Origin: a virus
DNA length: 24,898 bases
Reading direction: 5' to 3' (one strand)
IMG/VR virus record: IMGVR_UViG_3300028388_004838
Location: 1-24,898 of that record
Made by a program: the position numbers and the translations under genes. Shown one piece after another: positions 5,818 through 18,900 of this stretch. The stretch's first letter is position 1. Every line of letters starts with the position of its first letter. The notes below the pieces were generated by a model, which was not told where the DNA came from, did no database searches, and saw only the letters and a list, made by a program, of their open reading frames with translations.

Positions 5818-6294
5818 CTACTTGATACTTTTACGCAATTCCTCAATCACCTCGGCGGTCAATTCATCTGCCAGAAAATCAAAGCCTTCTGCCCGCAGGG
5901 TGTCAATCGCCCGTGCAAAGTACGGGTCGGCGGGGCGGGCGGGCTGGTGGACTTCCCGTGCAATGCCGATTTCGCCAGCGTCTACCGCGTCTGAAAACGC
6001 TTTGCCGGTGGGGAAAGGCTTGTAGGCGTCGCCCTTTTGCCGGTTCTTCCACCAGGCTAAAACCTTTTTTCCGGGCTTGGGGCGGATGGTCAGGGCCGGG
6101 CGTCCGTCGTGGACGGCGCGGGCATATTCCAGGTTGGTGCCGACCACCACCACGTCCTTGCCTTCCTGCTGTACGCCGGTTTCGTTAATGCTCTTGCGCA
6201 AGTCGCCACGGTCGAACGGGATATTTCCCTGGCGGGTTGTCACCTCAATGAGTTTGAGGGCTATTTTGTGGAGTATCCGGCTGGTGTCAATCAT
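5818..6294 (-). CDS. HK97 gp10-like head-tail joining or tail-completion protein
   Basis: A 158-residue protein starting at MIDTSRILHK; the ATG overlaps the terminase stop as ATGA, so this start is preferred to one 24 codons upstream. The pattern resembles the HK97 gp10/Mu gpG-type morphogenesis family: an N-terminal helix, a DRGDLRKSI segment, NLEYARAVHDG, then a loop with PGKKVLAWW and a C-terminal ARPADPYFARAID plus helix. These proteins sit at the neck or tail terminator. In most phages they follow the capsid gene; here the gene is the last of the minus-strand head operon. Confidence 0.75.
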   Translation of the reverse strand: MIDTSRILHKIALKLIEVTTRQGNIPFDRGDLRKSINETGVQQEGKDVVVVGTNLEYARAVHDGRPALTIRPKPGKKVLAWWKNRQKGDAYKPFPTGKAFSDAVDAGEIGIAREVHQPARPADPYFARAIDTLRAEGFDFLADELTAEVIEELRKSIK

Positions 6295-7877
6295 AACAAC
6301 CTCACGATAATATTTCCCGCATCCTCGCCTTTGGCGAGTCCTTCCAGCGCTAGCGCCAGCGCCCAAAAGGCGTCGGCGTGGCCTTGTTCATCCCGCGCCG
6401 CGTCGTAAGTAATCCGCCCGCCTTGCGTGGCTTTACGCTTGACGGCGTGGAGTTGCGCCAAGATTGCCGGGTTATTCGGCAATATCAGGCGCTTATCTTC
6501 AGCCAGCTTCAACATATTCAACGCAAGCTTCTCCTTGCGCTGCCAACTGAAATCAACCCCCCGCGCCTGTTGCGGAAAGTCTGATACGATTTCTTCTGCC
6601 AGTTGCCGCCCCAGCCCGGTGCGGTCTATTTGCAGGCGGCGCACTTGATAACGGCGCATCACGTCACCCAACAATCCGCGCTGCTCGGCAAAGGCGCGGC
6701 CCTTGTGCTCATCCAGGTGCAGCAGTTGATACTTATCTTGGGATGCCATCCCAACTACGGCAATCGCCGTGCGGTCATTGACACGGCCCACGTCAACGCC
6801 CACATACACCGGCCCGTCATAAATGCGGGATTCCATCCCGGTAGCCAGCTCATGCAACAACTCCCAGCCAAGCAAGGCGCTACCGTCCTCGGCCCACTGG
6901 CATTCATACATCATCGCCCAGGATTCGGCGTCGAATTGCATCCGTAGTTCTTCAATACCGCCGGGCAGGGTCATGCCCTGGGCGACGGCGTCGTGAATGG
7001 TGATTTTACGGCGGCTATAGTGGTTGTATTTGCCTTTGTGGTTCTCGGCGATTTCCCAGAACAAATTACCCGGCATAAAGGGCGTACTGCATACCGTCAC
7101 CCGCCCGCCGACGGCGGTAATACTCGGGATGACAGCCCGCCATATCGCTTTCGGACGTTGATGCCAAGCGAACTCGTCCAGGATGACATCCCCGTTAAAG
7201 CCTTGTATGGTGCGCTGATTTGCGGGTAAGGCGCGGATCACATTCGTGCTTAGCGTCAACTCGCTTTTGGTGATGGCGTTAAGTTCCAAGCCGAGCTTTG
7301 CGGCGTGTTGTATCGCGTAGTCGATAAGGATGTCTGATTGTTCCTGGCTGGCGCTAATAATGATTTGATTGCGCCCGGCGGCGCAACCTAGCAGCGCCCG
7401 CAATGCCAGCGCGTAGGAGAAACCAATCTGGCGCGACTTCAGCACCACTTGAAAGCGGGCATCGTCTTGTAAAAACTCGACTTGGTACGGATACAGCCCG
7501 AAGTCCGGCGACAGTACGCGCTTAAACAAATCCTTGTTGATGGCATTCGCCACCACCGGACGCGGCGCGGTTTTGGCCGGCGCGGTTTTCTTGATGCGCT
7601 CTAGCGTCCGCGTCAACATCGCCAGACGCATGGCCTTGGCGTCGCTCATGTTGCCCCGGCTGAGCTTGGCAATTTGATCCTCCAAGTTGCGCACGGTGCG
7701 ATGGCGCTGGTCTTTGTAAACCTTAAACCCCTTGCCGCGGATCCAGTTATAAACCGTGTTGACGGTCACGCCGTATTTATGCGCAATGTCCGCCACTTCA
7801 CCGCCCGCGAGGTATTCTTCGCAGGCGGTTTGTTTTTGTTCGGCGGTACAGTGTTTTTTTTGTTTTCGCATACGCAT
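6291..7877 (-). CDS. Large terminase subunit with fused N-terminal helix-turn-helix
   Basis: A 528-residue DNA-packaging motor. Residues 11-48 form a helix-turn-helix (EVADIAHKYGVTVNTVYNWI) like that of P2 gpP and small-terminase DNA-recognition domains. The ATPase part has a Walker A-like KSRQIGFS (147-154) and a Walker B GDVILDEF (about 229-236). The C-terminal RNase-H-like nuclease contains VGVDVGRVNDRTA (about 355), DRTGLGRQLAEE and a late HADAFWALALAL. The order fits Terminase_5/Terminase_6-type P2/PBSX enzymes. No separate small terminase is seen in the window, so the fused helix-turn-helix may do that job. The start follows the membrane peptide stop by a few bases. Confidence 0.92.
   Translation of the reverse strand: MRMRKQKKHCTAEQKQTACEEYLAGGEVADIAHKYGVTVNTVYNWIRGKGFKVYKDQRHRTVRNLEDQIAKLSRGNMSDAKAMRLAMLTRTLERIKKTAPAKTAPRPVVANAINKDLFKRVLSPDFGLYPYQVEFLQDDARFQVVLKSRQIGFSYALALRALLGCAAGRNQIIISASQEQSDILIDYAIQHAAKLGLELNAITKSELTLSTNVIRALPANQRTIQGFNGDVILDEFAWHQRPKAIWRAVIPSITAVGGRVTVCSTPFMPGNLFWEIAENHKGKYNHYSRRKITIHDAVAQGMTLPGGIEELRMQFDAESWAMMYECQWAEDGSALLGWELLHELATGMESRIYDGPVYVGVDVGRVNDRTAIAVVGMASQDKYQLLHLDEHKGRAFAEQRGLLGDVMRRYQVRRLQIDRTGLGRQLAEEIVSDFPQQARGVDFSWQRKEKLALNMLKLAEDKRLILPNNPAILAQLHAVKRKATQGGRITYDAARDEQGHADAFWALALALEGLAKGEDAGNIIVRLL
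6740..6752. repeat. Dispersed palindrome, perfect 13-base copy
   Basis: GGGATGCCATCCC, in the terminase nuclease domain, read on the minus strand as VGMASQ. A variant, GGGATTCCATCCC, lies at 6827-6839, and a 12-base copy at 7181-7192 falls in the Walker B motif. Confidence 0.8.
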
Positions 7878-7880
7878 GGT

Positions 7881-7961
7881 CTAAGCTCTTGGGCCGCGCC
7901 GCGCCAAGATAAAAACGGCGATAAGAATAGCGGCGGTAATGACGATAGATTCAGGTGTCAT
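7881..7961 (-). CDS. 26-residue membrane peptide between portal and terminase
   Basis: The sequence MTPESIVITAAILIAVFILA then RRGPRA is a single hydrophobic helix with a positive end. Its ATG overlaps the portal stop as ATGA, so it is translationally coupled. It ends just before the terminase ATG. The size and position suggest a real tiny gene, not noise; the same strand has a larger open frame from 8063, but that overlaps the portal. Function unknown; possibilities include a small holin-like or accessory peptide. Confidence 0.6.
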   Translation of the reverse strand: MTPESIVITAAILIAVFILARRGPRA

Positions 7962-9100
7962 AAGCTTTTTAGCAAGTCTAAGGCTTTGTCCAGTTGGGTC
8001 TCTTGAGAGTCCATTACATCCGGCGGCGTGACATCCGTCCCCACAAACCGGATTCCATCCCACGGGATACCCAACTCTGCCAGCAAGGGGCGCAATAAAT
8101 CCCGCACACGGCGGCGGCGGGGTTTCAGCGTATATTCTTCAAACACATGCAATTGCCCGGCGACTTCAGAACCACCGCCCAAACTGCCAGAGGTGACAAT
8201 ACCCAACATGCGCGGCGGCACGCCGTGGGCAATCGGGATTCTATCCCGCGCGGCGTCCAGCAACTTGAGAAAATCGCCGTCCTTGAAATCGCCGGTCAAC
8301 TTTTCAAACTTCAAATCTGCCGTTTCGTCGGTCAAATGCAGGTACAGCGTCTTATGAGCATTATCCAAGCCCTGAAATTCCCGCTGGAAAAAGCCCTTAA
8401 CGGCGTCCAGTTGGCCTTCGGAAAGCTGACTGCCCTTAGTGACGATGGCGTACTCCGGCAGGCTCTTGTTGCTGAAAAACTGCTGATTGAAGCGCACCGC
8501 AGCATACACAAGTTCAATCATCCCCGCCCCGGGAATCCACGCGGGCATCGCATAATAGCCGCCGGACGGACAGGCATAACGCAAGTGCAGGATGGCATCC
8601 GGCGGGAAGTATTGCGCCAGTTGTTCACCGTTGGGCGTCGTTGTGAGTTGAGTGTAACTGCGTTCGTCGGCGTTGCGGTACATGGTGACGGCGGGCAAGT
8701 GGCGGATTTCGCGTATTTTCTTATTGCCGTCGCGGACAATTTCCGCAAAGGCATTGCCGTAGGTTTCCAGGTCTACCCCTAACGACACAAACAAATCCGC
8801 AGCACCATTGGGCATCAGCGCTTCCAGCGTGCTCGCGCCAGCCCCCTCAATGCCTCTGCCAAAAGCCCCTTCAGCTTTGATGTGGATTGAGCGCCCGTGC
8901 TCGGCGCTGTATTGGTACAGGCTGAACAGCGCGGCGGGGTCTACCTGCCACGCGATCAGGTTGTCATGTGCGCCCGGCGCGGTGAACAGTTGCGCGAATG
9001 AGAAGCCGCCCGGCAAAGTCGATTTGATTACCGCCCCCCCGCTCGCTGAGCTTGTCGAAGCGATAGGCCGTTTAGGTTTAAAAAAATCCGTCAGTGTCAT
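7958..9100 (-). CDS. Portal protein, PBSX/P2 gpQ family
   Basis: A 380-residue portal protein. The protein forms the dodecameric ring through which DNA enters the head and onto which the tail is built. Recognised by the overall pattern of the PBSX family (P2 gpQ): DLETYGNAFAEIVRDGNKKI, the IREIRHLPAVTMYR segment, PAWIPGAGMIELVYAAVRFN, and the C-terminal ARDRIPIAHGVPPRMLGIV with VAGQLHVFEEYTLKPRRRR. Length is close to P2 gpQ. The start has GGGGGAT upstream in the divergent region. It leads the minus-strand operon portal, membrane peptide, terminase, gp10-like. Confidence 0.93.
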   Translation of the reverse strand: MTLTDFFKPKRPIASTSSASGGAVIKSTLPGGFSFAQLFTAPGAHDNLIAWQVDPAALFSLYQYSAEHGRSIHIKAEGAFGRGIEGAGASTLEALMPNGAADLFVSLGVDLETYGNAFAEIVRDGNKKIREIRHLPAVTMYRNADERSYTQLTTTPNGEQLAQYFPPDAILHLRYACPSGGYYAMPAWIPGAGMIELVYAAVRFNQQFFSNKSLPEYAIVTKGSQLSEGQLDAVKGFFQREFQGLDNAHKTLYLHLTDETADLKFEKLTGDFKDGDFLKLLDAARDRIPIAHGVPPRMLGIVTSGSLGGGSEVAGQLHVFEEYTLKPRRRRVRDLLRPLLAELGIPWDGIRFVGTDVTPPDVMDSQETQLDKALDLLKSL

Positions 9101-9230: not shown

Positions 9231-10013
9231 ATGCCGAGAGAACTGATTGAGTTAAGCGTCGAGTACATCAGCCTGGTGGATAAACCGGCGAATAGAAAAG
9301 CGCTGGTATTGAAAGCCGTCGATACCGGGATGGCATCCCATAGTGTAATGAAGCTTGACGAAGAAATGCAACGCGCCTACGGCATCGTGTACGGCCCCGG
9401 CGAAGTGGACGCGCAGGGCGATTTCGCCAATGCCGCGACGATTCGCAAGGCGGCGGATGAATTCATGCTGCACAAGCGCATGGACAAAGTCGATAAGCAG
9501 CATGATTTTAATCCGCTGCCGGATGTGTACGTGGCGGAATCGTGGCTGTTGCGCAAAGGTGACGCGCTGTTTCCGACGGAAGCTGAAGGCGCGTGGGCGG
9601 TGGGGGTCCAAATCGACAACGCCGAGGTGTGGGCGCAACTGAAGAAAGGGGAACTCGCCGGGCTGTCCCTGGCCGGGTTCGGACGTGGTGAAGAGCGGGA
9701 CGGGTTCCCGGAGGAAGATACTGTGGAAGATATTAAGAAAATGTTGGACGAGGCGTTAGCGCCGATTGGTGAGCGCTTGAGTCGTTTGGAAAAGGCGCAA
9801 GAAGGCGCGCAGGAAGCCGTAGAAGACGGCGAAAACGAAAACGCGAGCGATGGTGGCGGCGGCGATGAAAAAGCGCTGCAAAAGTCGTTACAGGCGTTTT
9901 TAGCGAAAATTGAAAAGCGCTTGGATGAGATGGAATTGTCCGTCTTGCGCAAGGGCCGCTCCGAAAGCGGCGGCGGTAGTGTTTCGGATGACATCCCGGA
10001 GGGCTTCCTGTGA
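9231..10013 (+). CDS. XkdF-type prohead serine protease with scaffold-like tail
   Basis: A 260-residue protein starting at MPRELIELSV, seven bases after AAGGAGG; an upstream GTG is less likely. The N-terminal half resembles the XkdF (Peptidase_S78_2) family: SVEYISLVDKPANRK, RAYGIVYGPGEVDAQGDFA, HDFNPLPDVYVAES, GAWAVGVQI and ELAGLSLAGF. From about residue 165 the sequence is acidic and coiled-coil-like with a Gly/Asn/Asp-rich break, typical of an internal scaffold. It precedes the capsid gene with a GTGA overlap, matching the PBSX xkdF-xkdG order. The catalytic Ser and His are not confidently placed. Confidence 0.85.
   Translation: MPRELIELSVEYISLVDKPANRKALVLKAVDTGMASHSVMKLDEEMQRAYGIVYGPGEVDAQGDFANAATIRKAADEFMLHKRMDKVDKQHDFNPLPDVYVAESWLLRKGDALFPTEAEGAWAVGVQIDNAEVWAQLKKGELAGLSLAGFGRGEERDGFPEEDTVEDIKKMLDEALAPIGERLSRLEKAQEGAQEAVEDGENENASDGGGGDEKALQKSLQAFLAKIEKRLDEMELSVLRKGRSESGGGSVSDDIPEGFL
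9327..9339. repeat. Dispersed palindrome, perfect 13-base copy
   Basis: GGGATGGCATCCC in the protease gene, read as TGMASHS. A 12-base copy lies at 9986-9997 near its end, read as DDIPEGF. Confidence 0.8.
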
Positions 10014-11002
10014 GCAATGAAATTCAATTTTTGAAGGCGGTGGAAACCGGCGTCAAGAACAAGGGCGCGGCCTGGTTGCAGCAGCAAGTTGTGGGCGCGC
10101 AGTTGTACGCGGTCGCCAAGGGTCTGGTCTCGCCGGAAGATGTGCGGGTGGGTGGCACGCTGCGCCCGCTGGCGGCGAATGCGATTATCAGCATGGTGCG
10201 AGAAGATGCGTTCTTGTCGAAAGTCACCACCGAGCGCATGGGCAAACTGAAGAAAGACGTGGATGTCTATGACGTGCTGGCGCGGCAATTGGTGCGCGTG
10301 GCGGAAGGCAGCGAGCCTACCAGCGGGCAAATGCCTGACGTCAGTGAATTCGGCTGTACGCTGACTGCGTTGCCGGTGCAGTTGTTCCCGACGCTGAAGC
10401 TGTCCACGCTGCAAGACAATTCGGACAATCCGCAATTCCTGCAAACCGTCAACGGCATGTTTAACACCGTATTTCAGAACGACTTGCTTGACCTGGGGAC
10501 TAACGGTACAGCGGATGATTACGCTGCAAGCGCATTCCTTGCGCTGAACAAAGGCTGGTTGCAAATCGCGCTGGACAGCGCCAACACGCCCAAGCTCGCC
10601 ATCGACCCGGCGACTGTCGGCTGGATTGATACCCTTGCCGCGATTCGCGCCGCGAGTGACGTGCGCTTCCGCCCCGAGTCGGTGTTTATCATGTCGCCGA
10701 ATGACGCCGATGCCTACAACATCGAGCTGGGCAAGCACGTCACCGGCGCGGCGATTATCGCCAACAGCAACGGGCAAGGCTTCCTGGCAACGCCTGTGAT
10801 TCCAAACCGCTACATGCCAGACGGCAAAGTGTTGTACACCCCGCTGAAAAACCTGGTGTTTGGAATGCACACCACCATCACTCGCACCGGTGCGTTCCAC
10901 GCCAGACGCCGAGCTTTCGAGTTCACCTACGACATGTCGGTCGATTATGAAATCTCGGTTAAGCAAGCGTGTGTATACGCGGCTGTCGGCTATGTTCCGT
11001 AA
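10010..11002 (+). CDS. Major capsid protein (HK97 fold, P2/PBSX-like)
   Basis: A 330-residue protein with a GTG start that overlaps the protease stop (GTGA). It resembles major capsid proteins of the P2 gpN/PBSX XkdG type: LRPLAANAIISMVREDAFLS early on, NDLLDLGTNG and LNKGWLQIALD in the middle, ESVFIMSPNDADAYN, then a final LKNLVFGMHTTITRTGAF and YEISVKQACVYAAVGY. Position after the XkdF-like protease supports the call. The exact family is not settled by eye. It contains no palindrome copies. Confidence 0.87.
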   Translation: MSNEIQFLKAVETGVKNKGAAWLQQQVVGAQLYAVAKGLVSPEDVRVGGTLRPLAANAIISMVREDAFLSKVTTERMGKLKKDVDVYDVLARQLVRVAEGSEPTSGQMPDVSEFGCTLTALPVQLFPTLKLSTLQDNSDNPQFLQTVNGMFNTVFQNDLLDLGTNGTADDYAASAFLALNKGWLQIALDSANTPKLAIDPATVGWIDTLAAIRAASDVRFRPESVFIMSPNDADAYNIELGKHVTGAAIIANSNGQGFLATPVIPNRYMPDGKVLYTPLKNLVFGMHTTITRTGAFHARRRAFEFTYDMSVDYEISVKQACVYAAVGYVP

Positions 11003-11015
11003 GGACTGACGCAAC

Positions 11016-11423
11016 ATGCTGCCGGCTGAACTGAAAACCCTGTTCAATCTCCCTGCTGAGGTGCCTGACCCGTTCCTCTCGGAAAAGCTGACTGCGGCTG
11101 AGCGTGACTTGGAACGCGACACCAGCGCAACAGCAGGCGGGATTGATGCCGGTATGGTGCCCATCTGGAACGAAGCGCTTGGGTACAAGGCTTACGCGCT
11201 GGCTGTGCCGTTCCTGCACCTGTTCACCCTGCAAGGCGCAAGCAGAGCCGAGCGCCTGGCCGCGCACTTGGATGCTCGGTTTATGGATGCGCGTGAAAAT
11301 GCGGCATTGGTGGACAGCCTGAATGAACGCTACCGGGAACTGGTGGTGGTGATTGTCGCCTCTGTCGCGCCTGATGAACCGGAAACAGGCGGCGTGCCGG
11401 GTATTCAGTGGGTGGCAATATGA
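11016..11423 (+). CDS. Head-tail connector or head-completion protein
   Basis: A 135-residue protein directly after the capsid gene, where P2 gpL-type head-completion and lambda-like connector proteins are found. It is helical with several Arg/Glu-rich segments (SRAERLAAHLDARFMDAREN) and a hydrophobic C-terminus. Family membership is not certain. AAGGA lies upstream of ATG. The stop overlaps the next ATG as ATGA. Confidence 0.65.
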   Translation: MLPAELKTLFNLPAEVPDPFLSEKLTAAERDLERDTSATAGGIDAGMVPIWNEALGYKAYALAVPFLHLFTLQGASRAERLAAHLDARFMDARENAALVDSLNERYRELVVVIVASVAPDEPETGGVPGIQWVAI

Positions 11424-11830
11424 CGCCGTATATCCAGGATTTAATTGAAACCCGCATTCGGGATGCCATCCCGGAGTTCGCGGGGGATACCTGGGGCGGC
11501 GAAAAGGCGCTGGTGGTGGTGGACGAGCTACGACTTAAGCCCGCCAACGGGGTTAGAAACGGCTGGCGGTTGCAGGCGGAATTGAACGGGGAAATCTCTG
11601 TTCTGCTGTATTGCGACCGCAGTGTTTATATTTCCCCGTTAAGTTTAATTTCATCCTGCGCCGACGAGTTGCTTACATTTTCGTTTCCTTCGGATGCTAT
11701 CCCAGGGGATGTCGGCTTAAGCGGTGAACTGCGCCCGCTACGCTGGCGGGAACGCTTGACCGAAACTTCGCGCCAGGTGGCGCTGGGTTTTGAGTGTGTG
11801 AATTTGTTGATGGCAATTAAAGAGGAATGA
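11420..11830 (+). CDS. Neck or tail-completion protein, Mu gp37-like position
   Basis: A 136-residue protein starting MTPYIQDLIETRIRDAIPEF; the ATGA overlap with the previous gene fixes the start over an upstream GTG. It looks alpha/beta, with beta-rich middle (ISVLLYCDRSVYISPLSLIS). The location and size match the DUF1834/gp37-type tail-completion genes of transposable phages, but the sequence call is tentative. Palindrome copies lie at 11460 and, degenerate, at 11692. Confidence 0.6.
   Translation: MTPYIQDLIETRIRDAIPEFAGDTWGGEKALVVVDELRLKPANGVRNGWRLQAELNGEISVLLYCDRSVYISPLSLISSCADELLTFSFPSDAIPGDVGLSGELRPLRWRERLTETSRQVALGFECVNLLMAIKEE
11460..11472. repeat. Dispersed palindrome, perfect 13-base copy
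   Basis: GGGATGCCATCCC, read as IRDAIPE near the start of the neck-protein gene. This is the last perfect copy before a gap of almost 3 kb. Confidence 0.8.
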
Positions 11831-11833
11831 TGG

Positions 11834-12748
11834 ATGAATTTCCGTACAGATGTATTATTGAGTCAGAACGCGCTGAGAAGCGCGAAGATTGACCCTGTTG
11901 CGACTGACCCCGTATCTCCGGTTTCCGGGCAGATGTGGTACAACACAACGTCCAATCGACTAAAGTATTATGATGGCGGTGTGGTACGCGAAATTGTGTC
12001 GCCGGAAACAGGTGACACCCTACTGAATAAAGTTTTTGACGCCAATGGCAGCGGCAACAGCATCAGCAATCTGGAGGTGGCCGACTTCGCGGCCAGCGTC
12101 GTAACCCATGACCTGGTCACAAGCGCGCTGTCCACCCAGTTCGCGGATGCAGCGGCGATTAAGTCCTATGTTGACAGCAATACCTCTTCCCTGACCGACC
12201 CGCTGCTGTTCAAGGGTGGCATTGACGCGAGCACAACCCCGAATTATCCGGCTGCTGACGCAGGCGATTTGTACAAAATCACCGTGGCCGGAAAAATTGG
12301 AGGGGCCAGCGGCCCTGCTGTGGAAGTCGGGGATACGATTATCTGCACCGTTGACAGCTCAGCCACCGGGGACCACGCCACAGTCGGCGCGAACTGGATT
12401 ATTCTCCAGGCCAACATCGACGCGGCCACTGATAGCGTGCCAGGCTACGTGGAGCTGGCTACTGTGTCTGAGTCCGAAGCCAAGACCGACACCGCCCGCG
12501 CAGTGACCCCTGCCGGCCTGGCGAGCTTTGTACGCCGCTATGGTGCAGACGTCACCAACAGCACCGGACAGACAATTCTCGCTGCTACGCATGGACTTGG
12601 AGCCACTAAGCATTTGCAGGTGGCGGTGTACGAGGAGGACGGAACGACAAACAATCAGGTTATTGTGGATGTATCTGTGGCTGACAACGGCGATGTGACC
12701 TGGGCCAGCAACACCGCCATCACAGGCCACATCGTGATCATGGGTTAG
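11834..12748 (+). CDS. Fibre- or decoration-like virion protein
   Basis: A 304-residue Thr/Ser/Ala/Gly-rich protein. Signals of phage fibre proteins are visible: GQMWYNTTSNRLKYYDGGVV near the start, a DPLLFKGGIDASTTPNYPAA segment with DAGDLYKI, and SESEAKTDTARAVTPAGLAS, a motif common in tail-fibre proteins. The C-terminus is beta-rich. It has a start four bases after the previous stop. It lies between neck and tail-tube genes, not at the tail tip, so a head-fibre or neck-fibre (whisker) role should be considered. Confidence 0.75.
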   Translation: MNFRTDVLLSQNALRSAKIDPVATDPVSPVSGQMWYNTTSNRLKYYDGGVVREIVSPETGDTLLNKVFDANGSGNSISNLEVADFAASVVTHDLVTSALSTQFADAAAIKSYVDSNTSSLTDPLLFKGGIDASTTPNYPAADAGDLYKITVAGKIGGASGPAVEVGDTIICTVDSSATGDHATVGANWIILQANIDAATDSVPGYVELATVSESEAKTDTARAVTPAGLASFVRRYGADVTNSTGQTILAATHGLGATKHLQVAVYEEDGTTNNQVIVDVSVADNGDVTWASNTAITGHIVIMG

Positions 12749-12752
12749 GCGC

Positions 12753-13118
12753 ATGAAATACCTGGCTGATTCCGTGCCGGTGGATGCCTACCAGAGTTTC
12801 ACCGATTCAAGCGTGACGCTGGATTTGGCGGTGGCCCGTTCGTTCCGGGTGACGATGAGCGGGAACCTGACGATTAATTTCACCCACCCGCCCGCCAGCG
12901 GACGGGTATATCACGTCCTGCTGGCATTGACGCAGGACGGCGTAGGTACGCGCAGCATCAGCGCATGGCACATCGGCGGGGTCGCCAAAACACCGGCCTA
13001 TTCCGACAAGGCCGCGCCCGTGCTGGCCAGCGGGGCCGGGGCGCGCACGGATTTGCATGTGATTGTGTGGGGGGACGGGACCCTCACCGTAAAATTAGCG
13101 GGCTTTGACGTAGGATGA
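12753..13118 (+). CDS. Small beta-rich virion surface protein
   Basis: A 121-residue protein with short alternating hydrophobic segments (SFRVTMSGNLTINFTHPPAS, then RVYHVLLALTQDG) and a C-terminal DLHVIVWGDGTLTVKLAGFD, pointing to an all-beta fold like fibre-tip or decoration domains. It is coupled to the next gene by an ATGA overlap and belongs to the three-gene surface cluster. No firm family. Confidence 0.65.
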   Translation: MKYLADSVPVDAYQSFTDSSVTLDLAVARSFRVTMSGNLTINFTHPPASGRVYHVLLALTQDGVGTRSISAWHIGGVAKTPAYSDKAAPVLASGAGARTDLHVIVWGDGTLTVKLAGFDVG

Positions 13119-13990
13119 TTTCGCACAACTACGCCACCCGACAGCGCACGGCCAAAACCGTCTATTCCGTGCGGCAATTGTATTCGCAGATTTCGGGCTA
13201 TTGCTTGCGCGTGCGCCGGGCGTCTGACAATGCCGAGCAGGATGTGGGCTTCAGCGGTGGGGCGCTGGACACCGTCAGCCTGTCCGCGTTTTGCGGGGCG
13301 TCCGCAGGTTATCTCTCGGTCTGGTACGATCAGACCGGGTATGGACTCGACATGAGCCAGACCAATACCTCGTTGCAGCCCATGATTTACGACGGCAGCG
13401 TGGTTCTGACCGCTGATAACGGCAAGCCGGCGCTCAAATTTGACGGGGATTATATTTTTGTGCCCAATAGCAGAGGGGATTTCACCTACCTGCACAACGG
13501 TACATCAAGCAGCGTGTTTATGGTGGTGAGTCCGGGTCTGGTGTCGAATCCTAACGCGGGCTACAGCCTGATCATGAACAACGGCGGGGCCTCCTACAAT
13601 ATCGGGGCCTCTCTGGGCTATGAGGACCGCTCAGTCTACGGCTTCAACGACACGCTGAGCGTAGGCGTCACCAATGGCATCACTTCGCAGCCCTCCATCG
13701 ACAACCGACCCAACAACGTCATCACGCCCAATGTCAGCCACATTGTGAGCGTGTTTATTGATGCGGGCGCGGCGGTGGCCGCTGACCGGGTGACGGGCTA
13801 TGTGGACAATGTGAACGCGGGGTTTGCCAATACGCATACCCGTGCGCCGAGTCTCGCCATGTCGACCAATTTCATGCAAATCGGCACCCTGAGTGGATAC
13901 CTGCAAGAGCTGGTTTTTTATAACAGCGACAAATCCGCTGACCGGAGCGCGATAGAGGCTGACATGAACGGATACTACGGGATTTACTGA
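13115..13990 (+). CDS. Surface protein with arabinofuranosidase-B/ConA-like carbohydrate-binding fold
   Basis: A 291-residue protein. The N-terminal part matches the arabinofuranosidase B catalytic-type fold found in many phage fibres: VYSVRQLYSQISGYCLRVRR, SDNAEQDVGFSGGALDT, a WYDQTGYG motif and NGKPALKFDGD. This concanavalin-like beta sandwich binds or hydrolyses polysaccharide. The C-terminal half (from about residue 110) is also beta-rich with LYLQELVFYN-like LamG character and ends ADMNGYYGIY. The whole likely binds a host surface glycan; enzymatic activity cannot be judged. ATGA overlap with the previous gene. Confidence 0.8.
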   Translation: MISHNYATRQRTAKTVYSVRQLYSQISGYCLRVRRASDNAEQDVGFSGGALDTVSLSAFCGASAGYLSVWYDQTGYGLDMSQTNTSLQPMIYDGSVVLTADNGKPALKFDGDYIFVPNSRGDFTYLHNGTSSSVFMVVSPGLVSNPNAGYSLIMNNGGASYNIGASLGYEDRSVYGFNDTLSVGVTNGITSQPSIDNRPNNVITPNVSHIVSVFIDAGAAVAADRVTGYVDNVNAGFANTHTRAPSLAMSTNFMQIGTLSGYLQELVFYNSDKSADRSAIEADMNGYYGIY

Positions 13991-14081: not shown

Positions 14082-14360
14082 ATGCTCAAGACACTCAACT
14101 TCGCACTTTTTTCTCGTGCGTTTGTGTACGTGAATCAAATCCTTACGGGATTTGTCGAGGCAAAAGACGATGGCAGCCCTGGCGGGCGGGCGGTTACACC
14201 GCTGGAAATCGTCGGCATTACCGCCAAGGTCAGCAGTACCTGGGCGCAGGCAGATGGGGTCAAGGTGGAAGTAACACTTGAAGAACTCATTGAAACCTTA
14301 GAACGGGCCGGTTGGACGGTCCTTCGGGATGGCATCCCAAATGATGGAGAAAAAAGCTAA
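14082..14360 (+). CDS. Hypothetical protein before the tail tube gene
   Basis: A 92-residue protein with a hydrophobic, aromatic N-terminus (MLKTLNFALFSRAFVYVNQI), a central segment and a helical C-terminus (LEELIETLERAGWTVL). No family recognised. Its stop overlaps the next ATG by one base. It contains a perfect palindrome at 14326, read as LRDGIPND. Confidence 0.7.
   Translation: MLKTLNFALFSRAFVYVNQILTGFVEAKDDGSPGGRAVTPLEIVGITAKVSSTWAQADGVKVEVTLEELIETLERAGWTVLRDGIPNDGEKS
14326..14338. repeat. Dispersed palindrome, perfect 13-base copy
   Basis: GGGATGGCATCCC in the last codons of the hypothetical gene before the tail tube. Confidence 0.8.
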
Positions 14361-14812
14361 TGGATATGTATACAAGCATCGGCACGGTGCTGAGCATCAG
14401 CGCAGCACAACCGGCAACCTACGATTCTGTGGGCTATGCAGCGTTAACGTGGACCAAAATCGGACTCATTGGTAGTATCGGTGACTTGACCGGACAATGG
14501 GATTCTGATGAGTTCAACCTGCTGGAAACCGGCGGTACGGTAAGGGCAAAGACGTTCCGTGACCCAGGCTCTACTCAGTTGACGATCGGCTATAAACCGG
14601 CGGACGCAGGGCAAGCGATTCTGCTCAGCGCGTACAACGATATTCTGAACGACTACAGCTTCAAGCTGGAAATGCCCGACGGTCAGGTACGGTACTTCCA
14701 GGCCAAGGTTATGGAGTACACCTACCAAGGTATTGACGGCAATTTCCAGAAGTTGCAAACCAGCCTTTCTCGACAAACCGACCCGGACGGGCAAGATGAG
14801 GTGATTGTATGA
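14360..14812 (+). CDS. Major tail tube protein
   Basis: A 150-residue protein in the position of the siphovirus tail tube, followed at once by the chaperone and tape-measure genes. The sequence is beta-rich with the strands expected of the tube fold: IGTVLSISAAQPATYDS, WTKIGLIGSIGDLTG, TFRDPGSTQLTIGYKPADAG, and FKLEMPDGQVRYFQAKVMEY. Similar to lambda gpV-type/Phage_tail_3-type tube proteins in layout; homology not verified. The stop overlaps the next ATG by four bases. Confidence 0.82.
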   Translation: MDMYTSIGTVLSISAAQPATYDSVGYAALTWTKIGLIGSIGDLTGQWDSDEFNLLETGGTVRAKTFRDPGSTQLTIGYKPADAGQAILLSAYNDILNDYSFKLEMPDGQVRYFQAKVMEYTYQGIDGNFQKLQTSLSRQTDPDGQDEVIV

Positions 14813-15204
14813 TCAGCTTAGCTGAGCTTGAAGTCAGCCCCACGGCTGAAATCCAAATTCGTGATGCCAACGGCGAGCGCCTTCCCGGCGTGGTGGCCCG
14901 TGTCTATGGCCCTGGCAGTCAGGAATACGCCAGCGCCGCAGCCGCCTGGCGGCGGCGGAACAAAACCATTGATGAATATGATGACAAGGCGATGCTTGAC
15001 AGTAACGCCCGGTTTCTCTCCGACATCACGCTGGAATTTGTTGGCGTTGAGTACAATAACTTAGGCGGCAAGGAGTTGGCTGACGCCATTTACCACAACC
15101 AGGCATTGGGCTATATCAGCAAGCAAATCCTGGCGGCGGTGTCTGACTGGGGGAAGTTCAGCAGGAGAAATACCTCGCCCTCGACATCTACGCCCGTCAA
15201 TTAG
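14809..15204 (+). CDS. Tail assembly chaperone, short (G-type) form
   Basis: A 131-residue protein in the lambda gpG position between tube and tape measure. It has a beta-rich N-terminus (AEIQIRDANGERLPGVVARV) and helical remainder. The last 18 residues after W114-G115 are Ser/Thr-rich and look unconserved, whereas the -1 frame continues with good coding character from the same place to 15533. The normal product is therefore the short form, and ribosomes that slip produce the longer G-T form. Confidence 0.8.
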   Translation: MISLAELEVSPTAEIQIRDANGERLPGVVARVYGPGSQEYASAAAAWRRRNKTIDEYDDKAMLDSNARFLSDITLEFVGVEYNNLGGKELADAIYHNQALGYISKQILAAVSDWGKFSRRNTSPSTSTPVN

Positions 15205-15533
15205 GCTGGCTGCACGCCTACCCAGGCAGGTCTGGCCTGCCTGATTCTTACCCCCATTATGCAGAGGTTGATGTGTTTCACGACATCGGACTCTGCGGCC
15301 AGGACTCACAGGGCATTCATCCGATTACCTGGGGGGAGCTGGTCAACTTCACCCGCCTGACCTTCGCTATCCCGCCCGCTGTACTGTTGTCTGTGCGGGA
15401 AATGAGCGCCGCGTATGTGAATGCGAGGCATTTTTTCTACAATGAAAAAGGCGCACCGCCGCCGTACAGTAACCCAGAGCGAGCGCGTGAGAGAATTCTT
15501 GCCGCGTTCGGAGGCAATAAAAGGAGGTCTTGA
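15147..15533 (+). CDS. Tail assembly chaperone, T-type extension read by -1 frameshift
   Basis: The frame minus one relative to the G-type gene is open from after the TGA at 15144-15146. It runs QQEKYLALDIYARQLGWLHA, later VDVFHDIGLCGQDSQGIHP, ITWGELVNF, RLTFAIPPAVL and AAYVNARHFFYNEKGAPP to TGA at 15531-15533. It has no convincing start or ribosome-binding site of its own near the beginning; a GTG at 15273 would lose the front half. As in lambda, the joined G-T product (about 241 residues if the slip is at the G-run) should help wrap the tape measure during tail assembly. Confidence 0.8.
   Translation: MGEVQQEKYLALDIYARQLGWLHAYPGRSGLPDSYPHYAEVDVFHDIGLCGQDSQGIHPITWGELVNFTRLTFAIPPAVLLSVREMSAAYVNARHFFYNEKGAPPPYSNPERARERILAAFGGNKRRS
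15148..15156 (+). promoter_or_regulatory. Probable -1 ribosomal frameshift site
   Basis: TGGGGGAAG: zero-frame codons are TGG GGG AAG; a one-base back-slip on the G-run gives GGG then GAA and enters the T frame. It lies just after the T-frame stop (15144-15146), so a slip here keeps the frame open. The lambda site is GGGAAAG, so the match is approximate. Confidence 0.65.
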
Positions 15534-15953
15534 GTGGATATTCAGGGGAATGGGAATGCCACGCAGTTTTTGATGGAAATGAGCCACGACATTGCTGAAA
15601 TACGCACCCAGCAGAAAACCACAGAAAATGAGATGGTCAAAATATCCGGCCTGCTGGAGCGGCTGATTGAGTCTGAGGTGAAGTTACAGCAGGCGGTGAT
15701 CAACCACGGCGAGAAGTTCGACCGCGTTTTCCAGTCGTTTGACCGCCTGGAGGCCCGTGTTTCGTCTCAGGAAAAAGAGCTGATTTCATGGGTCAACAGA
15801 GGCAAGGGGGTCGGCGCAGTTCTGCTGGCGCTCAGCGTGGTTGTCACCGGCGTGACCGGGTTCATGCTGAAGGAAATCTTCTACATGCGCGATACCATGA
15901 ACGTACACGACGTGATCATCATCGAGTACATGAAATCCAAGCACGGCAAATAA
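15534..15953 (+). CDS. Coiled-coil membrane protein of the tail/lysis region
   Basis: A 139-residue protein with a GTG start and AAGGAGG at 15521-15527. Residues about 15-85 form a charged coiled coil (LLERLIESEVKLQQAVINHG and LEARVSSQEKELISW). One transmembrane helix follows (residues about 93-113, GVGAVLLALSVVVTGVTGFM), then a short tail. The coil plus single membrane helix resembles XhlA-type hemolysin/lysis-accessory proteins; a tail-associated membrane protein is also possible. Fusion or frameshift is not indicated. It ends one base before the tape measure start. Confidence 0.7.
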   Translation: MDIQGNGNATQFLMEMSHDIAEIRTQQKTTENEMVKISGLLERLIESEVKLQQAVINHGEKFDRVFQSFDRLEARVSSQEKELISWVNRGKGVGAVLLALSVVVTGVTGFMLKEIFYMRDTMNVHDVIIIEYMKSKHGK

Positions 15954-15954
15954 C

Positions 15955-18900
15955 ATGTCCACGAATGATTTGACCATACGAGTGCGCCTGCTTGCCGACG
16001 GGCATGCGCTCGTTGACGGGGTAGACCGTGCCGATAACAGCCTGAAAGGCATGAACGGTACGGTCAACTCGGTGAATGAATCCATCGGTTCAATGATAAA
16101 AACTGCTGCCGCTGCTGTTGCCGGCTTTATCGCAATCGACAGCGCGCTGGATTCTTGGCAGCGGTTTGACGCTGCGGTGAATAATACCGCAAACCTCACC
16201 GGTCAGGCCCTCGACCAGGTCAAGCAGAGCGCTGTTGATACCTCCATTGAATTCGGACGTTTCGCGGGAGACGTAGCGGACGCGATGGGGGTTATTGGCT
16301 CCAAAGCGCCTGTGCTGCTGGAGATGCCAGCCGCCATGCAGGCCGTGACCGAGGCAAGTTTCACCCTGGCCGATGCGGCCAAGGCCACGGGCGATGCGCT
16401 GTCTGACGTGGACGCCGCCACCGCAGTCACTGCGTATCTTTCCCAATGGTCTATCGCCGCCAGTGACGCGGCCAGCGAGGCTGAACGCTTCGCCAATGTG
16501 GCGGCTGCCGGGGCGCAGTTAGGTTCGGCCTCGGTGTCCGACATGACGGATGTGATGAAAAACAGCGGTACCGTTGCTGCATCCGCTGGTGTGTCTATCG
16601 AGCAGTTCGCTGCTGTGACGCAGGTACTCGCTGAGCGCCAATTGGAAGGCGCTGAAGCCGGGACGGCGTTCAGGAACGTGCTTAATACCCTGCTCACCAA
16701 AGGCCCTGAGTTTGAGAAATTCGGAGTGAGCGCAGGTAGCGTTAATCCGAAAATTGTCGGTCTGGAGCAGGCGTTGAAAAACCTCGCGCCGATACTGGAA
16801 AATGACGTGGCGCTCACTAAGATTTTCGGCGCTGAAAACCTGGTGGCCGCGCAAATCCTGGGCAACGGCGCGGACGCGGTGGGTGAAATGACCGCCAAGT
16901 TGACAGGAACGAATACCGCCTACGCCCAGGCAGAAGCCGGTCTCAATTCGTTTTCCGCTCAACTGGAAATCAGCAGCGCGTTACTGCAAACCATCAGCGC
17001 CATTACCATTGACGAACTCATAGGCCCCGCCCTGGCCCCGGCCCTGGCTGGGGTTAATCAACGCTTGCGGGATTTGGCGGTGTCCGCTCAGGGTATCAGC
17101 GACAGCGCGTCATTTCAGCAGATGAGCATGGAGCTTGACATCGCCGGGCGCTACGCGGCTGAACTGTACCCAGCGCTGCAAATGATTGCCCAGGGCTGGC
17201 TGGACATTGCCAACATGCTGAACCAGTTGACCGCCGACTTCGGCCTGATTGCGGAAAATACCGACCTGGCCGACAGCAGCATGTCGCGGTTTATCGAATC
17301 GGGGTTGCAGGGACGCACCTTGATTGAAATTTTCCAGGATGCCTGGAATGAGATTCTGCACATCGGTAGCACCATACAAGCCCTGTCCGCGATAGCCAGC
17401 GCGGAATTTACCGCCATCGGGGCGTGGTTTGCCGGGGTGTGGATTGACGGCAAAATATTCGCTATCGAAACCTTCCGAGAGTTGGAAAATTGGATCAGCG
17501 GTATCGGCCTGCTGATGGGTGAGTTGCGAGTCGCCGTGTTGCGGGCGTTCCGCGATATGCTCGATAGCGCCGCGTCCATGTCCAATAGCCTGAGCGCATT
17601 GCCTGGGCCGTTTGGCGATGTGGCCGAAGGCGCAGCCGCAGCCCGTGATGCCGTGGCCGGGATGACATCCGACGCCATCGCCGGGCAACGGGACGCGCTG
17701 AAATCAACTCTGGATTGGAACGCGGGCATTGACGCTCAGGTGGCCGGGCTGAAGCAGGAAAAAGAGGCGCTGCAAGATTCTGCGTTCGCGGCCCGCGAAA
17801 AAGCGGAAGCGGCGATCGAGCAGCACCAGGCGGCTAAGGATTTGACCCAGACCACGCGGGAACAAATACAGGCTGATTCAGACCTGAGCGATGAAGCCTA
17901 TGAACTGGCAGAAGCCATGAAGGCAACGGGTGATTTTACCGCTGACCAAGTGGATGACCACGTGGCGATTTACAAGGCCCGCCGCCAAGCCGCCGAGGCT
18001 GCGGATGATGAGCGCCGCCAGGCTGAGCGCCTGACAGAGCAGAGTGAATCCCGTATCCAGGACATGCAGGCTGAACTGGAGCTGCTGCAAATTGCGGATG
18101 AAACCGAGCGTGAACGCTTGCGCCATTTGCGGGGTTTTGCCCCTGAGTACCAGGCTCAAGCTGAGGCCCTGATGGATCAGATTGACGCCCAGCGGGAAAT
18201 GAATCAGGCTGCGCGGGAACTGAAAAACGCCTATGAAGACGCTTTCAGTTCCGCCCTCGGCGCGTTTGAAAGTTTTCTGGGCGCTGTGCTCAGCGGCTCA
18301 GGCGACATTAAACAAAGCCTGGGAAATCTGGGCGGCAGCCTGGCCGGCATTGGCGCTAATTTGAGCAAGGCAGAACAAAAGGCGGCTGATAAGGGCCTTG
18401 CCTTTGGTACCGGTGACGGCACATTTGGCGCGTTGAGTTCAGCGTCCACTCTGTTTGAAAATGCCGGCTGGGATATGTCAGAAGGCGTTTCCAGCTTTTT
18501 GGGTTCTACTGACAGCTTTGCTGAATCAGTCGGTGGATGGGGGAATGTGATTGGCGGCGCTGGCGCTCTTATCTCCCTTGCGTCTGGCGATTATGCGTCT
18601 GCATTGGGAACTGCGGGTTCCATGCTGGGTCAGTGGGCCGGTAATCTGCTGTTGCCGGGGGCTGGCGGCATGATAGGCAGTGTGTTAGGCAATCTTGCGG
18701 GGACTATGTTAGGCGGCGCTCTAATGGGCGGCGAGACCCGTAGCGGCGGCGCGTATCGCATGTCCGATGACGGGGTGGAGAAAATACAAGGCCCTTCTGG
18801 TGGCGATATTGGCGGTGAGCAAGGGCTGAACTTTGTGGTGGAATCCATAGAGGGCACCACGTCTTACACCAACAATCTGTTGAGCCTGTTGGGTTCTGAT

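Follow-up and report, generated by a model that had tools for sequence, protein, structure and literature searches.

Neck fibres are usually seen by microscopy and are seldom tied to the genes encoding them. The present work concerns three consecutive open reading frames (ORFs), here called fibA, g121 and abf, that fill positions 11834-13990 on the plus strand of IMG/VR virus record IMGVR_UViG_3300028388_004838, in the interval from the last connector gene to the gene of the tail tube (the whole stretch analysed, positions 1 to 24,898 of that record, i.e., 24,898 bases, is called the window throughout). The three genes rather likely code for a neck (collar) fibre, and the phage that carries them is of the Mu-like transposable type, with a tail that does not contract. 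Going by the published accounts, the fibres of the neck passage structure (NPS) of lactococcal 936 and P335 siphophages end in exchangeable carbohydrate-binding domains (73/113 phages; PMC6669499), the NPS of TP901-1 being reported as non-essential and one NPS carbohydrate-binding module as binding host cells weakly (PMC6669499); the Anabaena myophage A-1(L) has neck fibres of three proteins, gp80-gp82, with a distal carbohydrate-binding module (PMC10966104); and the Alteromonas siphophage R7M bears whiskers at its head-tail interface, for which a candidate gene in the head-tail module was assigned, as a suggestion, from protein abundance (PMC8265664). Some tail terminators are also described as carrying additional domains, e.g., to bind the sheath (PMC11784142).

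By description, the cassette would resemble the lactococcal NPS in comprising neck fibres with putative carbohydrate-binding ends that are present in part of the phages only, and would differ from it in the proposed anchor, which is a BppU-like N-terminal domain in the NPS and would here be the tail terminator or an adjoining protein, as well as in its distal domain, which is GH54-like. The likeness to A-1(L), again by description, would lie in a three-protein neck fibre with a carbohydrate-type distal module, whereas in A-1(L) the carrier of the fibres is a pentadecameric ring of gp5, and the fibre genes are remote from the rest of the structural genes; with R7M, the window would have in common a siphophage neck appendage with a candidate gene in the head-tail module (fibA matched 13 phage records, R7M not being among them and its presence in that collection being unchecked). 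The cassette is probably a variant of these known neck adhesins (lactococcal NPS, A-1(L) neck fibres), from which, taken collectively, it would differ in having the terminator as the carrier and a GH54-type domain; no description of a terminator-adhesin fusion was found in the literature searched, which covered few subscription papers. The features on which the comparison leans are as follows (ORFs are the longest frames called by a script without a gene finder, with internal starts possible):

11016..11423, plus strand: head-tail connector-place gene (HTC), 135 aa, lying 3' of the capsid gene in 24/24 relatives with the same head module
11408..11830, plus strand: predicted tail terminator (neck ring), 140 aa, named from the fold of its AlphaFold2 model
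11834-12748, plus strand: fibA, modular fibre protein, 304 aa, named from PHROG matches
12753-13118, plus strand: g121, small protein, possible fibre-end domain, 121 aa, named from a weak domain match
13115-13990, plus strand: abf, GH54-fold adhesin-like protein, 291 aa, probably non-catalytic, matching PF09206 and overlapping g121 by 4 bases
14360..14812, plus strand: tail tube (major tail protein), 150 aa, matching phrog_158 (E 6.8e-17), the right border of the cassette

The neck location is favoured because the gene upstream of fibA has a predicted terminator fold, because abf-type domains are fused to a terminator in 14/80 loci and to a head-closure protein in 1/80, and because none of 24 head-module relatives carries the cassette (counts out of 80 refer to the best 80, chosen for abf, of at least 534 confirmed relatives from an IMG/VR scan with a four-row abf alignment, and apply to abf-bearing loci, not to phages in general). 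In such a fibre, the fibA product would be held by its N-terminal part at the terminator or connector ring or beside it, with g121 and abf as the outer end. Several copies (six in the case of a hexameric ring) would stand out from the head-tail junction and touch the surface glycans first, probably reversibly, before the machinery of the tail tip comes into play. The glycan binding itself is putative, in that abf may bind glycans through its predicted GH54/lectin-like fold, and the cassette would be exchangeable, the relatives having near this junction either no adhesin-type genes or different ones.

The 11408..11830 gene yielded no Pfam match and no PHROG match below E 0.45, and its profile retrieved from the PDB sequences only a histone (0.015) and a kinase (0.82), both taken as chance. 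Its AlphaFold2 model (8 homologues, pLDDT 75.8), when compared by VIA-align, was matched over nearly the whole of its 140 aa by the SaPI1 neck protein (Z 9.8, rmsd 3.1, 111 aligned), followed by other solved terminators, namely those of T5 (p142, 9.3), lambda (gpU, 9.2), the gene transfer agent (GTA; 9.0), A-1(L) (8.5) and Mu (8.4). The gene also lies where a terminator would be expected, between the connector and the tail genes, with a homologue behind HTC (itself with no Pfam and no PHROG match) in 23/24 relatives, and we file it as terminator-like by predicted fold, not as a PF11367 member.

Fusions to neck proteins were found in other phages. In the 14 terminator loci (L078, L083, L084, L085, L101, L102, L109, L112, L123, L134, L139, L140, L143 and L148; counted as 13 at the 85% level because L083 and L084 do not differ), the abf domain lies C-terminal to a PF11367-like tail terminator in one ORF, which in L123 has the terminator beginning at residue 185 of the called frame and in L140 is cut at its 5' end; the head-closure fusion (L079) joins Hc1 to abf. 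A Pfam run on nine proteins, eight of them abf-bearing, put all five terminator fusions tested above the PF11367 cut-off and L079 above that of PF05521 (head completion), did not find PF11367 in L081 and L093, and found PF09206 in 7/8 of the abf-bearing proteins, the abf domain of L079 being called by an in-house profile. By PHROG, the N-terminus of the L083 fusion is phrog_347 (tail terminator, 6.3e-18), that of L079 is phrog_25 (head closure Hc1, 1e-14), and L083 gene 9845-10258 is phrog_1407 (major tail protein). The PF11367-like terminator also occurs free-standing, in 9/80 loci and at 129-164 aa (L144 and L149 seemingly coming from the same phage), and in these nine loci abf is found on or behind the tail-tip gene in eight and on Hc1 in one; as an outside control, PF11367 was present in 3/369 gammaproteobacterial genomes, where its open frames span 134-146 aa, and a PF11367 frame of 154 aa lies in the L065 genome.

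When two of the fusion proteins were compared by tblastn with 50,697 phage records, none covered 80% of the query, the partial matches numbering 24 and 218 records, and Bacteroides phages matched the terminator part only of L083, in a gene annotated as a putative tail completion protein; the terminator-abf fusion is seen here only in uncultured contigs. Another conserved N-terminal protein is fused to abf in six loci (L093, L099, L103, L117, L126 and L150), and its 135 N-terminal aa (MITFNNIV...) also stand free in other loci, possibly as another type of terminator or connector; as a terminator, however, this L093 type was set aside (no link to the PF11367 type, and no PHROG or solved structure matched), and its six loci were counted apart. 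Two further loci have abf unfused, with an L093-type gene ahead of it, and in 7/80 it is separate and upstream of a marker gene, the frames of L098, L138 and L142 being cut by the contig start 3.3-4.1 kb before the tail-tip gene.

Relatives of the window were gathered with its capsid protein, which gave 24 loci with the same head module at 48-57% capsid identity, some of which may be one phage present in two collections; L158, L162-L164 and L166 (same contigs as L050 and L052-L055) were left out, L165, being of equal length, was taken as L070, and L169-L171, at 25-28% capsid identity and with no match to fibA, g121 or abf, were likewise left out. No homologue of fibA, g121 or abf was detected in any of the 24 (tblastn, E 1e-4). 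Instead, a gpV-like baseplate gene (the gene names are those of P2) comes directly after, or overlaps, the terminator homologue in 21 of them, all except L064, L070 and L152, with L070 showing a later gpJ; in the relatives whose gene order was followed further by eye, the sheath- and tube-like genes come after a fibre-like one. In L064 (a Thiotrichaceae MAG, i.e., metagenome-assembled genome; capsid identity 57%), the terminator is followed by a tail-tube gene (phrog_807) with nothing between, and in L152 (55%) the interval between the capsid gene and the connector holds a gene of the PF23140 podophage GP4 fibre-I family (4.6e-7) and a PF07484 Collar-domain gene (2e-18), two small genes, one of them holin-like just under the cut-off, lying between its terminator and tube. 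Also in L152, the HTC homologue shares one ORF (L152:6238-7326, internal start possible) with a repeat-like stretch of about 240 aa ahead of it, which has R..F and PQ motifs and is perhaps a fibre shaft on the connector itself. A wider search for the head module found it in 2/42 genomes of the order of L064 (its own and G035, taken as L152 because both contigs measure 19,375) and in 2/369 genomes of the class (its own and G144, matching at the contig end).

With the cassette missing from all 24 relatives and fibre-type genes of another kind present in L152, the junction of head and tail in this group is, judged by gene content, a site of gain and loss of adhesin-type genes. This agrees with the suggestion in the first-pass annotation that the cluster is a variable adhesion cassette: the comparison of the interval among relatives, which it had set beforehand as a check on cassette swapping, showed an exchangeable rather than a constant cassette, absent from all 24 relatives, with other fibre-type genes between capsid gene and connector in L152 and nothing between terminator and tube in L064. 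Its observation that fibre-like and arabinofuranosidase-like genes lie in mid-operon, ahead of the tail tube, is confirmed (ORFs of 304, 121 and 291 aa, tube at 14360), whereas its premise that fibres usually lie at the end of the tail region is not universal, given the gpV-like gene after the terminator in 21/24 relatives and the fibre-like gene before sheath and tube.

Turning to the cassette proteins themselves, abf matches Pfam PF09206 (ArabFuran-catal) above the cut-off over residues 16-86 only (E 3.5e-8) and phrog_10356 (“virion structural protein”, head and packaging) over residues 12-290 (E 9.7e-21), and abf alone had no sequence match to solved structures. An AlphaFold2 model built from 30 homologues (pLDDT 76.2, pTM 0.82) has the predicted fold of the GH54 catalytic domain, its residues 7-290 aligning to 18-334 of alpha-L-arabinofuranosidase B (PDB 1wd3; Z 16.9, rmsd 3.3, 234 aligned, 14% identity), and Foldseek was concordant (GH54, E 1.1e-7); the next folds were lectin-like domains (Z 12.3) and the tailspike of cyanopodophage Pan3 (Z 11.9). 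abf is thus like arabinofuranosidase B in predicted fold over the whole catalytic domain and in the N-terminal motif, but differs in lacking a conserved acid in the nucleophile region and in sitting in a virion gene cluster.

A virion-borne enzyme, i.e., abf as an active arabinofuranosidase or related glycosidase trimming surface glycans, is most improbable. The full-domain GH54 fold, well ahead of the next one in Z, would suit it, and so would E265, near the domain end, which is Glu in 29 and Asp in one of the 30 homologues; the sequence similarity to GH54, however, is confined to chain residues 16-87, and Asp or Glu together reach 60% of the homologues at residues 38, 41, 43, 52, 72 and 265, plus residue 8 (Thr in the window), but nowhere within residues 73-264, the expected place of the nucleophile (E221 of the fungal enzyme, named in the title of 6sxr). 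This was read from the 30-homologue alignment. An active arabinofuranosidase was given low weight for want of that conserved acid, and, for the same reason, abf is most likely a binding domain with a predicted GH54 fold. The GH54 acid/base, which we take to be D297, could not be mapped onto abf.

fibA is shown by computation to be a modular fibre protein. Its residues 1-289 match phrog_8309 (E 2.3e-15), with further matches to phrog_910 (tail collar fiber, 3.2e-7), phrog_16122 (head and packaging, 6.6e-7) and phrog_8443 (tail fiber, 1.9e-6) and no Pfam match up to E 1, and a block of about residues 101-200 is common to L001, L072, L147 and Xanthomonas phage Rb1 at 51-73% identity, in L072 and L147 in the same neighbourhood as abf. 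The best solved structure by sequence is the Gp12 short tail fibre (E 0.13), and an iterated fibA search was discarded as having drifted into fibre-shaft repeats. For g121, there was no Pfam match, the PHROG matches were weak only (best phrog_3904, tail fiber, 1.2e-4), and an iterated search with g121 alone found nothing; it weakly matches the C-terminal domain of a fibre gene beside the abf homologue of L049 (E 0.007, in a set of about 2,060 sequences, and left out of the profile). That g121-like C-terminal fibre domain is above threshold in seven proteins from six loci, and a gene ending in it lies directly 5' of abf in L049, L077 and L147 and 3' of abf in L097. As a separate observation, the terminator gene and fibA are in one frame, parted only by TGA TGG (11828-11833), and read-through would yield a terminator-fibre fusion resembling those of the other phages; AGAGGA (11821-11826) can be the fibA ribosome-binding site, which makes separate initiation of fibA likely. 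The pairing of a fibre-like gene with an annotated arabinofuranosidase in Aphanizomenon phage CL131 was dropped as a parallel, its capsid gene being in another block.

Several points weigh against a neck fibre in this phage. In the window, the terminator and the fibre are separate genes, the fusions being found only in other phages, and the attachment is for that reason something we infer; the terminator of the window is known by predicted fold only, with the rows of other folds beginning at Z 7.2, no Foldseek match at E ≤1e-3 (the best, to a stopper-terminator complex, at 3.3e-3), and membership of PF11367 or a PHROG terminator family not supported, hhalign having given a probability of 0.1% against the PF11367-type alignment, and the same value against the L093 type and Hc1, homology to which was rejected as well. 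The carbohydrate module of the A-1(L) neck fibre did not bind the host (PMC10966104). Within the 80 loci, 38 have no marker and are uninformative; related cassettes in L072 and L147 are near lysis-type genes (by eye), without a recognisable neck gene; and a probable tail-tip protein carries abf as a fusion in five (L081, L090, L110, L114 and L115; three distinct, the last three named being nearly identical), while in seven abf is a gene of its own behind the tail-tip gene. The protein in question is conserved, bears no Pfam or PHROG name for the parts tested, and is taken as a tail-tip protein because its gene comes after the tape measure in L079, L083 and L085 (by eye). Given fusions and placements at terminator, Hc1 and tail-tip genes within the 80 loci, the abf module appears to occur at both the neck and the tail tip among phages with common marker genes.

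These tail-tip placements are also what would be expected if fibA, g121 and abf were ordinary distal tail fibres encoded out of place, their position dating from an exchange of modules with phages in which the fibre genes come before the tube, as the gpV-like gene behind the terminator and the fibre-like gene before sheath and tube in the relatives might suggest. We nevertheless consider this unlikely: none of the 24 relatives has a fibA, g121 or abf homologue; of the two that look siphovirus-like, L064 lacks a fibre between terminator and tube and L152 has another set closer to the connector; and terminator-abf fusions exist in 14/80 loci. The cassette also lacks the canonical position of distal fibres, 3' of the tape measure and tail-tip genes, since it ends at 13990 and the tape measure begins at 15955; the contig stops at 24898, which puts the phage's own tail-tip fibres beyond comparison. 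A location on the head shell rather than the neck ring, as capsid-surface fibres or decoration proteins, would accord with the “head and packaging” class of phrog_10356 and phrog_16122 and with the head spikes of RcGTA, which bind capsule polysaccharide (as told in PMC9973310), but the cassette is behind the terminator gene and not beside the capsid gene, and the fusions typed are to terminator, head-closure and tail-tip proteins, capsid fusions not having been looked for; we regard this explanation as quite improbable. The placing of the proteins on the head or neck in the first-pass annotation is hence upheld indirectly, by the terminator fold next door and the terminator-adhesin fusions elsewhere, with the tail tip still allowed by the domain alone, as its fusion to (5/80) or position behind (7/80) the tail-tip gene indicates; likewise, the structure predictions that it called for gave a GH54/lectin-like fold for abf and a terminator fold upstream, the abf domain not settling the tail-tip alternative. 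Its interpretation is overall partly supported, more strongly on location and variability than on glycan binding.

A neck fibre of this kind might point to something more general, which is put forward tentatively, as a possibility: the terminator ring would be a display platform to which a GH54-derived adhesin module is added, either as a fusion or, as in the window, in separate genes immediately behind, in many uncultured phages, the module moving between neck and tail tip among related phages, and host contact at the neck would be a widespread, unrecorded adsorption strategy. If that were true, neck fibres would become predictable from sequence alone. The terminator-adhesin and head-closure-adhesin fusions could mark, at the sequence level, adhesins borne on the neck of uncultured phages; they indicate one adhesin module in use at both tail ends, make the role of neck contact in adsorption testable, and suggest that some viruses bear gripping fibres at the neck besides those at the tail tip.

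The remainder of the window reads as part of a transposable phage of the Mu-like type whose tail, judged from the tail genes, is long and does not contract; the grounds are the transposition genes at its left end and its tail gene content. At the left end are a gene for a Mu B-type DNA transposition protein (phrog_296) and one like GemA (PF06252), the terminase and portal genes follow on the minus strand (6291-7877 and 7958-9100), and a plus-strand block from 9207 comprises a protease, the capsid protein, two connector-place genes and the three cassette genes, followed by a 92-aa gene, the tail tube, two chaperone-place ORFs, a 139-aa gene and the tape measure. The features not listed above are:

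from 9207, plus strand: protease, left of the cassette
10010..11002, plus strand: major capsid protein (phrog_1623), the anchor in the search for relatives
15955-21756, plus strand: tape measure, 1933 aa, placed by the gene order of the window

The tail tube was matched in 117 phage records, a search with it for close relatives in viral contigs returned three stretches, none confirmed, and the tape measure had no match in six related records. The terminase and portal genes (6291-9100) run opposite to the other head genes, and the same inversion is seen in head-module relatives. Between the tail tube and the tape measure, the two ORFs at 14809-15533 resemble a tail-chaperone pair of the lambda G/GT type, with a GGGGGAA stretch near 15150 as a possible frameshift site, and the 139-aa gene just before the tape measure (15534-15953) is coiled-coil-like, with a hydrophobic stretch and no family match above the cut-off. 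Among the abf relatives, L094 has a single ORF of 2585 aa (L094:3212-10969) that holds six abf domain matches, and in six loci a conserved gene of about 131 aa (YIIVLPEG... RELYNIT) lies directly 3' of the abf-bearing gene, as a candidate fibre chaperone or tip partner:

L083:9039-9434, conserved gene of about 131 aa
L085:4958-5362, the same
L093:2508-2900, the same
L112:3331-3732, the same
L117:4207-4608, the same
L134:3956-4351, the same

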